DNA of 64,000 nucleotides from Rhodanobacteraceae bacterium (GTDB lineage: Bacteria; Pseudomonadota; Gammaproteobacteria; Xanthomonadales; Rhodanobacteraceae). The notes below the pieces were generated by a model. It did not search any database. It was not told the DNA's origin and saw only the letters and a program-made list of their open reading frames with translations. Position 1 is the stretch's first letter; every line of letters begins with the position of its first letter. Made by a program: the position numbers and the translations under genes. Below, one piece after another: positions 52,504 to 56,784 of the stretch. The DNA lies in assembly GCA_016790075.1 (NCBI GenBank), contig JAEUPP010000018.1:1-64000 (forward strand), read 5' to 3'.

Positions 52504-53019
52504 TTAGTTCTTGGTGTAGACGATTTCGACGCGGCGGTTCTTGGACCAGCAATCTTCGCTGTGATCCTTGCAGGTCGGGCGCTCTTCGCCGTAGGACACG
52601 ACATTGAGCTGATTGCCCGGAGCGCCGGCCGAGGACAGAGCGCTCTGCACGGCGTTGCCGCGGCGCTCGCCCAGACCCAGGTTGTATTCACGCGAGCCGC
52701 GCTCGTCGGCATTGCCTTCGAGGGTCACGGCGAAGTCCGGGAACTGGCGGATGAACTTGGAATGGCAGGCGATCTGGGCCTGGAACTCGCTCTTGATCTC
52801 GGTGCGGTCCAGATCGAAGTAGATGACGCGCTGGCGCAGGCAGCTGTCGGTGTTCAGGGAGTCACGCGTGTAGCCGCCGGATTCGGTGCCACCGCCCGCC
52901 GTACTAGACGAGTCCGTACCGCCACCCGACGACGGCGGCTGCTTGACGGCCTTCTTGGCGCAACCAACAGCGGTCACGCAGAGCAGAGCGGCGATAGCGA
53001 GGCGAAGCGAAGTGTTCAT
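52504..53019 (-). CDS. pal: peptidoglycan-associated lipoprotein Pal
   Basis: A 171-residue outer-membrane lipoprotein. The lipobox is VTAVGC with the acylated cysteine at residue 20. A Gly/Ser linker follows, then an OmpA-like peptidoglycan-binding domain with VIYFDLDRTEI, GNADERGSREYNLGLGERR and the closing NRRVEIVYTKN. It anchors the outer membrane to the cell wall and binds TolB. AAGGA lies about 8 nt before the ATG. Confidence 0.97.
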   Translation of the reverse strand: MNTSLRLAIAALLCVTAVGCAKKAVKQPPSSGGGTDSSSTAGGGTESGGYTRDSLNTDSCLRQRVIYFDLDRTEIKSEFQAQIACHSKFIRQFPDFAVTLEGNADERGSREYNLGLGERRGNAVQSALSSAGAPGNQLNVVSYGEERPTCKDHSEDCWSKNRRVEIVYTKN

Positions 53020-53095: not shown

Positions 53096-54442
53096 TTATC
53101 GCTGGCGGAATGGACCCCACGACGGCTCACGCACGTCCCCGTCGGCCAGAACCAGACGCTGACGAACGCGTCCGTCGGCGGACACCGCGTACAGCACACC
53201 GCGCGGTCCGTCGGTCGCGGCGTACAGCAGCATGCTTCCATTCGGGGCGAAGCTCGGCGACTCGTCCACGCTGCCCGGGGAGATGCTGCGCATCACGCCC
53301 GAACCCGTGCTCCGGTCCAAAACCGCAATACGATACACATTTCCAGTGCCTTGCGCCATAGCAAACGACTTGCCGTCGTAGGAGACCGAGGGCCGGGCAT
53401 TGTATTCGCCCTGGAAGGTCAGACGCGTCGCGTCGCCACCTGCGGCGGAGACCTGGTAGAGCTGGGGTTTGCCCGAGCGGTCCGAGGTGAACACCAGGGT
53501 CTGGCCGTCCGGCATCCACTGGGCCTCGGTGTCGATGGAGAAATGGTTGGTGATCCGCTGGGTCTCGCGGCTGGCCAGGTCCATGATGAAAATGTCCGGA
53601 TTGCCGAGGTAGGACAGGGTCAGCGCGAGCTTGCTGCCGTCGGGAGAAAACGCCGGCGCGCCGTTGATGCCCTTCTTGTTGGAGAGGACCTGACGCGAAC
53701 CGGTCGCAATTTCCTGCAAGTAGATGGCAGAGTCACCCCGCTCGAACGAGACATAGGCGAGTTTCTTGCCGTCGGGCGACCAGGCCGGCGACAGCAGCGG
53801 CTCGCGCGAGCGGACCAGCACCTGCGGGTTGTAGCCGTCGGAATCGGCGACCATCAGCGCGTAGTTGATATTCGGACTGACGCCGGATGCGGTCACATAG
53901 GCGATACGGGTCCAGAACGCCCCGCGCACCCCGATGATCTTTTCGTAGATCAGATCGGCGATCTGATGGCCGACACCGCGCAGGTCGCTGCGCTGGCCAG
54001 TGATCGCCAGGCCGAGCAGGCGTTCCTGCTTGGGCACGTCGAAGAGCTCGAATTCGACCCGCATGGCGCCGCCTTCGGCATCACTCATGCGCCCGACAAC
54101 GATATAGGTCTGCTTGAGCAGGTTCCAGGTCGGAAACTTGATATCGCCGCCGCGGGATGGAAATTCGACGACATCCTTCTTGTCCAGCGTCCTGAATTTG
54201 CCGGAGCGGGCGAGGTCCATGCGCACTACATCGCCGACGTCGGTGTCGCCCGGTGCGCCGGCGGCCTCGAAGGCAAATGGCACGACGGTGATCGGCAGCG
54301 CCGAAGCGCGTCCCTCGTTGATCACAATGGTGGGTACGTCGCTGCTGAGGCCCGGACCGGGCGCCGGATTCTGCGCCTGCGCGGCAGTGCCGAGCAGGCA
54401 AAGCAACAAACTGGCGATGCGGATTACGGAATTGGCTGGCAT
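53096..54442 (-). CDS. tolB: Tol-Pal translocation protein TolB
   Basis: A 448-residue periplasmic protein. A signal peptide (IASLLLCLLGTAAQA) is followed by the alpha/beta N-terminal domain (ITVVPFAFEAAGAPGDTDVG) and a six-bladed propeller with repeats such as SPAWSPDGKKLAYVSFERGD, SPDGSKLALTLSYLGNPDIF and MPDGQTLVFTSDRSGKPQLY. It couples inner-membrane TolA to Pal. It starts 12 nt after the small TolA-domain gene and ends 76 nt before pal. Confidence 0.96.
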   Translation of the reverse strand: MPANSVIRIASLLLCLLGTAAQAQNPAPGPGLSSDVPTIVINEGRASALPITVVPFAFEAAGAPGDTDVGDVVRMDLARSGKFRTLDKKDVVEFPSRGGDIKFPTWNLLKQTYIVVGRMSDAEGGAMRVEFELFDVPKQERLLGLAITGQRSDLRGVGHQIADLIYEKIIGVRGAFWTRIAYVTASGVSPNINYALMVADSDGYNPQVLVRSREPLLSPAWSPDGKKLAYVSFERGDSAIYLQEIATGSRQVLSNKKGINGAPAFSPDGSKLALTLSYLGNPDIFIMDLASRETQRITNHFSIDTEAQWMPDGQTLVFTSDRSGKPQLYQVSAAGGDATRLTFQGEYNARPSVSYDGKSFAMAQGTGNVYRIAVLDRSTGSGVMRSISPGSVDESPSFAPNGSMLLYAATDGPRGVLYAVSADGRVRQRLVLADGDVREPSWGPFRQR

Positions 54443-54454
54443 ATCAGTCCTGCT

Positions 54455-54817
54455 CTAGTGACCGCTGTGTTTGAAAACGAGGTGTATGCGGCGCTGAAAA
54501 ACGGTTTCAAAGCCGGCATACGGTAACGGGGAGGCCTTGCGTACCGCCTGTTCCAGGGCTGCACGCGTGGCTGCATCAGCATTGCAATCGTTCCCGAAGC
54601 TAGCCTGAACGACTTCGCCACCGTCGCGCTGTTCGATATCGACAGGACAGTGCAGATCGGTGCGCGTCGGTTCCGGCTGTGCCCAGGCGCGCTGGATGGC
54701 CGCGTGCACGGCCGCGATATACGCCTCGATCGGAGCCGGTGATTCGGCCCGGGCAGCAGCAGCGGCCATCAGCATCCCGCCGGCAAGCACGGAGGCGCCG
54801 ACGAATCTAGCCGTCAT
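54455..54817 (-). CDS. free periplasmic TolA C-terminal (domain III) protein
   Basis: A 120-residue protein with a cleavable signal peptide (MTARFVGASVLAGGMLMAAA, cut near ARA-ES) and then only a TolA domain III. The match to the C-terminus of TolA next door is plain: both have the CNADAATR segment, LEQA, ASPLPY-x-G-[YF]-E-[ST]-V-F-[KQ]-R, and both cysteines that bridge in TolA. It lacks the membrane helix and the long helical domain II. Its ATG overlaps the tolA 3' end by 11 nt and its stop is 12 nt before tolB, so it is made with the Tol machine. It is a partial tandem duplication of tolA. The role is unknown; it might bind TolB, Pal or incoming toxins. Confidence 0.82.
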   Translation of the reverse strand: MTARFVGASVLAGGMLMAAAAARAESPAPIEAYIAAVHAAIQRAWAQPEPTRTDLHCPVDIEQRDGGEVVQASFGNDCNADAATRAALEQAVRKASPLPYAGFETVFQRRIHLVFKHSGH

Positions 54818-55610
54818 AGCGAAACTCGAAGCGGATCTTGCGCTTGAACACGGATTCATAGCCTTTGTACGGCAGCGGCGAGGCGCGCCCCGAAGCCTGT
54901 TCCAAGGTAGTGCGCGTGGCGGCGTCGGCATTGCAGGGACTGACTACGGTAGCCTGGATCACGTCGCCACCGATGATCTGCGTGATTTCCAGCGTGCACT
55001 TTACCCCCGGCGGAGTCGTTTCAGGGCGCAGCCAGGCGTTCGTGACGGCGCTCTGGATCGCCGCGTAGTACTCGGCTTCGAGGCTGCTGTCGGTGCCTTC
55101 CTGGCCGGTCCTGGCCTCCTCGGCGATCATCGCCGCCATATGTTCTGCCTCGGCCTTTGCCGCGAGTTCGCGCGCCTTCTTTGCCTTTTCCTCTTCGAGT
55201 TTTTTCTTTTTCTCGGCCTCGGCGGCTTGTTTCTCGGCCAGCTCGATCTGCTCCCTCTTGCGCAGCTCTTCCTGCAGCCTGGCGTTTTCATCTGCCTTTT
55301 GCTGCGTGATCTGATCCGTGATCTTTTCCTGATCCTTCTTGTCTTCCTTGGGTTTTTCCTGCACCGGCTCCTCTGGCTTGGGCGTAATTTCCTCGGGCTT
55401 GGGCGGCTGCTTCTTGGGCTGCGGCTTCACCTTCTTCGGAGCTGGCGCCTGGGCCGGGCCTACCAGGGTGGCCTCGATGATGGGGCCGGGAATGCTGACG
55501 ACCACGGTGCTATGCGTCCACCACAGGCTCACGCTGACGATCGCGAGCACCGCGAGGTGCACGGCCAGCGAGTAGAACCAAGGGCGCAGGGTATTGTCGT
55601 CGCCGGCCAT
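54807..55610 (-). CDS. tolA: Tol-Pal inner-membrane protein TolA
   Basis: A 267-residue protein with three domains: a single membrane helix (YSLAVHLAVLAIVSVSLWW, residues 14-32), a Lys/Glu/Ala/Pro-rich helical domain II (about 55-165, for example AEKKKKLEEEKAKKARELAA), and the globular domain III (about 172-267) with two cysteines. The helix carries the SHLS-like motif that contacts TolQR. It spans the periplasm and contacts TolB and Pal. Domain II is shorter than in E. coli. It starts 9 nt after tolR. Confidence 0.95.
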   Translation of the reverse strand: MAGDDNTLRPWFYSLAVHLAVLAIVSVSLWWTHSTVVVSIPGPIIEATLVGPAQAPAPKKVKPQPKKQPPKPEEITPKPEEPVQEKPKEDKKDQEKITDQITQQKADENARLQEELRKREQIELAEKQAAEAEKKKKLEEEKAKKARELAAKAEAEHMAAMIAEEARTGQEGTDSSLEAEYYAAIQSAVTNAWLRPETTPPGVKCTLEITQIIGGDVIQATVVSPCNADAATRTTLEQASGRASPLPYKGYESVFKRKIRFEFRYDG

Positions 55611-55619
55611 ATCGAACGA

Positions 55620-56060
55620 TCAGTTGGCCTTGTCCTGAGGCGGCTGCCCCATTAGCCCGACTTTTGCGACACCGGCACTCTGCAACAGCGCCATGGCGCC
55701 GTAGACCTTGCCGTACTCGGTCTTCTGGTCACCGGCCACGTAGACAGGACTTTTGGGGTGCTGATTCATGTACGCACGAATCATGGTATCGAGACGCTCC
55801 GGCGTGACCTCTTCGCGCGCGGCCTCGGGAATCGTCAGGAACAGCTTGCCGTCCACATCCACGGTCACGACCACCGGATCCTTGTCGACGTTGAGGCTCT
55901 TGGCGACCGCAGATTCGGGCAGTTCGATGTCGACGCCCAGATTGAGCAGGGGCGCGGTCACCATGAAAATGATGAGCAGCACCAGCATCACGTCGATGTA
56001 GGGCACGACGTTGATGTCGGCCTTGAGCTTCTTGCGTTTGCGGCGATGGTGAGTTTGCAT
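55620..56060 (-). CDS. tolR: Tol-Pal proton-channel protein TolR
   Basis: A 146-residue ExbD/TolR protein with one membrane helix (NVVPYIDVMLVLLIIFMVTA) containing the aspartate of the proton path in PYIDVMLVLL. The periplasmic part, with VYVAGDQKTEYGKVYGAMAL, ends the protein. With TolQ it uses the proton gradient to move TolA. The ATG at 56060 has GGAG about 8 nt upstream and keeps the usual basic start (HHRRKRKKLKADIN). Confidence 0.95.
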   Translation of the reverse strand: MQTHHRRKRKKLKADINVVPYIDVMLVLLIIFMVTAPLLNLGVDIELPESAVAKSLNVDKDPVVVTVDVDGKLFLTIPEAAREEVTPERLDTMIRAYMNQHPKSPVYVAGDQKTEYGKVYGAMALLQSAGVAKVGLMGQPPQDKAN

Positions 56061-56100
56061 GGGCGACTCCAACGGTCGGGGAGAGAACGCAGGGTCGCGC

Positions 56101-56784
56101 TCAGTCCTCGATGTGCGCCTGGCGCTGCAGGATGGATGAGAACTCCTCGGTGAACGTGTCAAAGCGCGTCGCGACACGCTCGACCTTGTTGGAATAGCGG
56201 TTGTAAGCCCAGGAAGCCGGTATCGCCGCAATCAACCCCATGGCCGTTGCCACCAGCGCTTCTGAAATGCCCGGTGCGACACTGGCGATCGTGGCCTCCT
56301 TCACGTTGGCCAGCCCCTGGAACGAAATCATGATGCCGTAGACCGTGCCGAGCAGCCCTACGTAAGGACTGATGGAGCCGACGTTGGCGAGGAACTCCAG
56401 ATTGCCTTCAAGGCGGTCGATCTCGCGGGTCTGCGCGACACGCATTGCGCGCTGCGCCCCCTCAAGCAGAGTGCGCGGATCGACGCCACGGCGCTGACGC
56501 AGCCGGGCAAACTCGCGGAAGCCGGCCTCGAAGATGCTCTCAATGCCGCTGATCTGGTCGCCACGGCCGCCGACTTCGCGAAACAGCGCGGCAAGATCAG
56601 CCCCGGACCAGAAGCGCTCCTCGAACTCATTCGCGCTGCCCAGCGCGGTCTTGAGCATGGAGTGCTTGCGGAAAATGATCATCCACGACACGAACGAGAA
56701 CGCCAGCAGCACCAGCATCACGAACTTGACGAACAGGCTCGCATGCAGCACCAGCTGCCACAGATTCAGGTCACCAGCGTTCAT
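56101..56784 (-). CDS. tolQ: Tol-Pal proton-channel protein TolQ
   Basis: A 227-residue ExbB/TolQ protein with three membrane helices (VKFVMLVLLAFSFVSWMII, then SISPYVGLLGTVYGIMISF and ISEALVATAMGLIAAIPASW). The cytosolic loop between helices 1 and 2 has RGVDPRTLLEGAQRAMRVAQ. Together with TolR it forms the motor. Its ATG overlaps the ybgC stop by 4 nt. Confidence 0.96.
   Translation of the reverse strand: MNAGDLNLWQLVLHASLFVKFVMLVLLAFSFVSWMIIFRKHSMLKTALGSANEFEERFWSGADLAALFREVGGRGDQISGIESIFEAGFREFARLRQRRGVDPRTLLEGAQRAMRVAQTREIDRLEGNLEFLANVGSISPYVGLLGTVYGIMISFQGLANVKEATIASVAPGISEALVATAMGLIAAIPASWAYNRYSNKVERVATRFDTFTEEFSSILQRQAHIED

Follow-up and report, generated by a model that had tools for sequence, protein, structure and literature searches.

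The 64,000-nucleotide stretch of Rhodanobacteraceae DNA analysed here (the window) carries, between tolA and tolB, a separate gene for a free TolA domain III, which is kept in related genomes and whose product is predicted to fold as that domain does; we are highly confident of its identity, place, conservation and fold. The function of the protein is judged with far more reserve. The most likely reading, to which we give somewhat short of even confidence, is that it would act as an untethered competitor for the N-terminus of TolB and thereby damp the pulling by TolA.

The free gene (54455..54817, minus strand) encodes 120 residues, with a signal-like stretch at residues 1-24, the domain at about residues 29-120 and two cysteines, Cys57 and Cys78. 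It belongs to a minus-strand cluster in the order ruvB-ybgC-tolQ-tolR-tolA-free gene-tolB-pal-cpoB-queE-queC, in which the genes were named by position and sequence; this applies to tolQ (56101..56784), to tolR (55620..56231, the open reading frame as listed, with a true start that is probably internal) and to pal (52504..53019, with a lipobox-like AVGC), all on the minus strand. The tolA gene (54807..55610, minus strand) encodes 267 residues comprising a membrane helix, a stalk and domain III, and its product scores 78.6 bits against TIGR02794, with a cut-off of 59.45. The ATG of the free gene lies within the Tyr-Asp-Gly-stop end of tolA, giving an 11-nt overlap (ATGACGGCTAG, 54807..54817, minus strand) through which we infer translational coupling of the two genes, and its stop is located 12 nt upstream of the tolB ATG. 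TolB (53096..54442, minus strand, 448 residues) has an N-terminal segment (PTIVIN...) that is presumed to bind TolA by analogy with the accessible part of PMC7066135. Its mature N-terminus, of the GLSSDVPTIVIN type, is longer in the window genus than in the other genera read. A coupling of the free gene to this longer N-terminus was considered and rejected, as genome G007 has the longer form without having the free gene. Third-position GC is low at 54500-54649 (minus strand), where the lowest 50-codon window of the free gene has a value of 0.56; in windows of seven neighbouring genes the mean is 0.79 and the lowest value 0.58.

In a search of the whole genome (5,624,045 bases, 95.65% complete), tolA was the sole other match to the free-gene protein, with 46% identity across residues 23-119 (E 3.1e-25). 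The domain matches the last ~90 residues of this TolA, and the two proteins have in common the cysteines and the segments CNADAATR and ASPLPY, as the first-pass annotation of this DNA had read from the sequence. The free-gene protein passes the cut-off of Pfam TonB_2 (PF13103; 24.8 versus 22 bits, E 2.3e-5) and does not reach that of the NCBIfam model of full TolA, TIGR02794 (32.9 versus 59.45 bits). The membrane helix of TolA domain I is absent, its place being taken by a short hydrophobic N-terminus that ends in AAARA (MTARFVGASVLAGGMLMAAAAARA), and so is the helical stalk (domain II), the domain starting at about residue 29 directly after the signal-like stretch. The same annotation had proposed a domain-III-only TolA paralogue between tolA and tolB, a description borne out by the identity to TolA, the missing anchor and stalk, the overlap and the short gap to tolB.

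Its further claim of an exported protein bearing a signal peptide stands in part: the N-terminus is signal-like, and export to the periplasm by this signal peptide is graded as probable only, because the grading is based on a hydrophobicity heuristic. According to this heuristic, the best 10-residue mean of the free-gene protein is 2.02. The products of tolB, pal and cpoB have means of 2.66-2.78, the cytoplasmic QueC has 1.97, and a mean of 2.0 is reached by 23% of the 44 long open reading frames in the window. The copies of the genus have means of 1.97-2.70 in five genomes, the lower end again equalling cytoplasmic QueC, and of 1.46 in G003, which is a weak stretch. The hydrophobic N-terminus may also be an uncleaved helix.

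A search of the PDB with phmmer yielded an E value of 0.22 at best, so that a fold search was needed. The AlphaFold prediction was made from a shallow alignment of five sequences, two from the window and three from two loci of named records, and the five resulting models disagree (mean pLDDT 80.6, 72.6, 67.5, 66.3 and 65.6). Taken per ten residues, pLDDT rises from 42, 40 and 59 over the three N-terminal blocks to 86-95 from residue 31 on; the secondary structure runs as helix 29-44, strand 55-63, strand 69-74, helix 82-95 and strand 110-117. The best Foldseek match in the PDB was 6S3W, a TolAIII with a TolB peptide (E 9.1e-5), followed by 1LR0, these being the sole two matches with E up to 0.001. 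All ten matches with E < 0.04 are TolA III or Helicobacter TonB-CTD, and their TM-scores of 0.43-0.69 refer to a query length that includes the low-confidence N-terminus. The structure prediction called for at first pass thus points to a TolA III fold for the free-gene protein.

The gene lies directly after tolA, with tolB next, in six of the eight genomes of the window genus (g1); in the other two, G004 and G007, tolB follows straight after tolA. As the six carriers form one clade in the TolB tree (98/96), with G004 and G007 outside it, a single gain accounts for them. In the short domain tree (93 rows, few columns at 91), the TolA of G004 instead groups with that of four of the six carriers, and with this placement a loss would be needed. 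The six copies themselves are one clade in the domain tree (100/93); they are 51-88% identical to each other among the best matches listed, and 38-49% identical to their own TolA. Over 15 pairs of these genomes (dS 0.27-1.44), dN/dS was 0.27-0.50 for the free domain, 0.12-0.31 for tolA domain III and 0.07-0.29 for tolB, and far looser values of 0.39-1.78 were obtained for the signal region of the free gene. Judged by these ratios, the free domain is under purifying selection and changes faster in amino acids than TolA domain III. An alternative reading frame, which is open across the 3' part of the gene in several genomes and has an early stop in G005, was rejected.

Beyond the genus, the search of relatives for a second TolA_C gene between tolA and tolB, also suggested at first pass, revealed this arrangement in three families; the family and class counts given here are lower bounds, as the first-look step limited scoring to the best candidates in each genome. 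At least 19 of the 233 genomes of family f1 have two or more domain matches, the second of which adjoins tolA, by coordinates and among the matches listed, only in the six genomes of the window genus. The sample of 395 genomes of family f2 includes at least 61 with two or more matches, at least 25 of them with the second directly after tolA, and one genome of family f9 (G317) has a free gene in the same slot. In a genus of f2, g86, the gene is present in at least 15 of 20 genomes. All 26 loci read (25 of f2 and G317) have tolB downstream of the extra domain, and in each of them a start with a hydrophobic N-terminal stretch could be selected, the candidate starts having been ranked by hydrophobicity in a way that favours signal-like ones. 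The copy of G751 (f2) is frame-broken and the others, 31 in all, are intact. A lipobox is clear in the G317 copy, and lipobox-like patterns occur in those of G510, G593 and G636. A related-locus search of named genomes gave two loci, one of them (L033) with the free gene. The class-wide sample of 369 genomes contained no further adjacent case among the matches listed; outside the order, at least eight genomes gave two or more matches, which lie on different contigs or at long distances, and the profile has little power at this range, with at least 305 of the 369 genomes having been matched at all. The diverged copies in six genomes rule out a sequencing artefact at 54455-54817, and with 26 carriers from two further families (one of them with a broken copy) in addition to six of the eight genomes in the genus, neither of the two grounds named at first pass for dismissing the gene, an artefact or a lack of homologues, applies.

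Several further TolA_C genes were observed alongside. At L084:1896-2162 (minus strand), a copy between tolA and tolB has a lipobox (LSGC) and is probably a lipoprotein form. A single open reading frame at L085:2976-3617 (minus strand), away from the tol genes, combines a signal-like start with two tandem TolA_C domains. Four g86 genomes (L086, L087, L125, L126) have a signal-bearing TolA_C gene that is distant from the tol genes and has flanking genes in common among them; in L087 it adjoins alpha/beta hydrolases and a MerR regulator. At L097:3010-3276 and L098:3071-3337 (minus strand), a signal-like start and a TolA_C domain are followed by ~128 further residues.

The proposed mechanism starts from a free domain III that would be made together with TolA and TolB and would reach the periplasm through a signal peptide of its own. 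According to the accessible parts of PMC4339652, PMC7066135 and PMC7391070, the last strand of TolA is the binding place of TolB, g3p and colicin N. The C-terminal beta strand of the free domain would take the kind of peptide that TolA takes, the TolB N-terminus. Being uncoupled from the TolQ-TolR motor, the domain would occupy TolB without pulling, and the release of Pal would be damped or timed; since it cannot pull, damping is what should be expected. The available portion of PMC7391070 describes TolB-TolAIII binding by strand augmentation with a Kd of about 40-200 uM, an affinity at which the free domain could compete and which is low enough that large amounts of protein would be required to do so. 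That the free domain binds TolB and damps Tol action is a possibility that we would sooner doubt than assert. The gene is dispensable, given the weak signal stretch in G003, the broken frame in G751 and the absence of the gene from G004 and G007.

The residues of the domain bear on the choice of partner. Both cysteines and the Trp are kept in all 31 intact copies. The Arg of W-x-R-P, present in 48 of 49 TolA rows, is found in one of six g1 copies, none of the 15 g86 copies and seven of ten others, and the Gly three residues before the first Cys (47 of 49 TolA rows) is Asp in five of six g1 copies, in 15 of 15 from g86 and in one of ten others; the window protein has Gln47 and Asp54 at these positions. 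Of the 49 TolA rows, 48 have an Arg opening the last strand, a residue that five of six g1 copies retain; 12 of 15 g86 copies have Pro there instead. A proline within the last strand of E. coli TolA abolishes TolB binding, as reported in the accessible text of PMC4339652, and the window copy has no proline in this strand. With two near-invariant TolA residues mostly lost, and Pro at the strand start in most g86 copies, binding may have been altered in the g1 and g86 copies, and the changes would allow a different partner, most of all in g86. Convergence in the loss of Arg and Gly is not established, as a single clade of g1 and g86 copies is unrejected and the pairs were too few for a paired test.

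These changes would suit a free domain that binds another periplasmic or outer-membrane peptide, for instance of a lipoprotein, CpoB or a cell-wall enzyme, and links it to the Tol site, and the faster amino-acid change, the lipobox of G317 and the additional TolA_C genes with a signal that f1 and f2 genomes carry outside the tol region agree with this. However, a place between tolA and tolB suggests TolB as the partner, the nearest solved fold is a TolB-bound form, and the copies of G653, G559 and G549, which are close to their own TolA, keep both Arg and Gly, so that we regard such a change of partner as unlikely but not negligible.

The history of the gene was assessed in the domain tree, in which the g86 copies are one clade (100/100) and the G317 copy groups with its own TolA (100/94); the copies of G653, G559 and G549 likewise have their own TolA as best match (83, 71 and 66%). 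More than one origin is supported because the AU test rejects a single clade of all 31 intact copies (p 0.0014). One clade of the f2 copies was barely rejected (p 0.043), and was not rejected without G653 and G559 (p 0.115). A common clade of the g1 and g86 copies was not rejected (p 0.466), which is compatible with an old shared copy ancestral to both. Gene conversion between neighbours could make copies resemble their own TolA. In G653, a tandem duplication (L103:2142-3308) extends from TolA domain III as far as the TolB signal peptide, with repeats of 281 nt (86%) and 232 nt (91%) at spacings of 566 and 589, and the copy opens with a sequence nearly identical to the TolB signal peptide, to which TolA domain III is joined. 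The comparison made for a signal peptide derived from TolB gave 261 identical columns of 299 aligned in this genome and a score of 402, with shuffles reaching at most 28. A TolB-derived signal peptide in every lineage was rejected: of the 30 genomes compared (G593 and the broken G751 were outside the comparison), it is clear only in G653, and among the other 29 only G559 and G764 lie slightly above their own shuffles.

A broader proposal is that, within this order, tol-pal operons have time and again given rise to an untethered TolA domain III that serves as an inbuilt brake of the Tol motor, that such a gene is born in one step when a tandem duplication places the TolB signal peptide in front of TolA domain III, and that the brake gains its own specificity in old lineages; taken as a whole, we consider this rather doubtful. 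Occasional duplications between tolA and tolB might also leave copies that are tolerated relics without a task, as suggested by the directly visible event in G653, the broken G751 copy, the weak G003 signal stretch and the lack of the gene in most genomes among the matches listed. The dN/dS of 0.27-0.50 in the genus, the two cysteines retained throughout the intact copies and the wide presence in g86 argue against relics and make this improbable. A decoy that captures the coat proteins of phages or the translocation domains of bacteriocins targeting TolA domain III appears more improbable still: colicin N and phage g3p bind TolAIII where TolB does, on the same strand (PMC4339652, accessible part), and fast divergence with patchy presence could fit an arms race, but dN/dS is at most 0.50 and a decoy would have no need of this place in the operon. 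It is very improbable that the DNA rather than the protein is kept, with the 3' half serving as a regulatory element of tolB and the frame being incidental, since the low third-position GC of this part and the excess in same-codon identity over tolB in four close genomes (0.82 versus 0.72) are offset by the disappearance of the excess with six genomes (0.72 versus 0.71), by windows inside tolB that reach 0.96-0.98, by a reading frame open in six of six genomes and by a search for promoter or terminator patterns that found none. A tolB promoter inside the free gene was rejected on the same missing pattern and same-codon values.

The Tol-Pal machine, which keeps the outer membrane of bacteria together, has been studied as an unvarying set of parts, to which a natural free domain III recurring in the operon would add one that could regulate force transfer to TolB-Pal. 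The gene offers a system for asking if bacteria naturally adjust the pulling by TolA, and G653 illustrates a one-step path from a domain to a separate secreted protein. Our literature searches, to which most subscription papers were not open, found no description of a natural free TolA domain III gene; the text of PMC12204202 (on TolA-TonB evolution) has no mention of standalone, soluble or Xanthomonad, and its mentions of duplication or paralogues concern TonB. The E. coli precedent for effects of free TolAIII that had been invoked at first pass does exist: secreted TolAIII makes E. coli release proteins and is used for this purpose (PMC6195910, accessible part, which cites the constructs of Levengood-Freyermuth 1993 and of Wan and Baneyx 1998), and the natural gene mirrors this laboratory construct.

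Compared with known systems, the free protein is predicted to be like TolA domain III of P. aeruginosa (1LR0/6S3W) and TolAIII of E. coli in its helix-strand-strand-helix-strand fold, and it has two cysteines and the operon in common with domain III of its own TolA. It differs from TolA in having neither membrane helix nor stalk, in its own signal-like N-terminus, in a domain of 46% identity and in its faster change. Its score also places it among the TonB_2 (PF13103) proteins, a family name without a function, whereas the nearest relatives found in sequence and fold are TolA. Like the secreted TolAIII of the laboratory, it is a free domain III, and it would probably be exported in a similar way through its signal-like N-terminus. 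The laboratory protein, however, is man-made and overproduced in E. coli, whereas the gene of the window is natural, lies in the operon and is kept across species.
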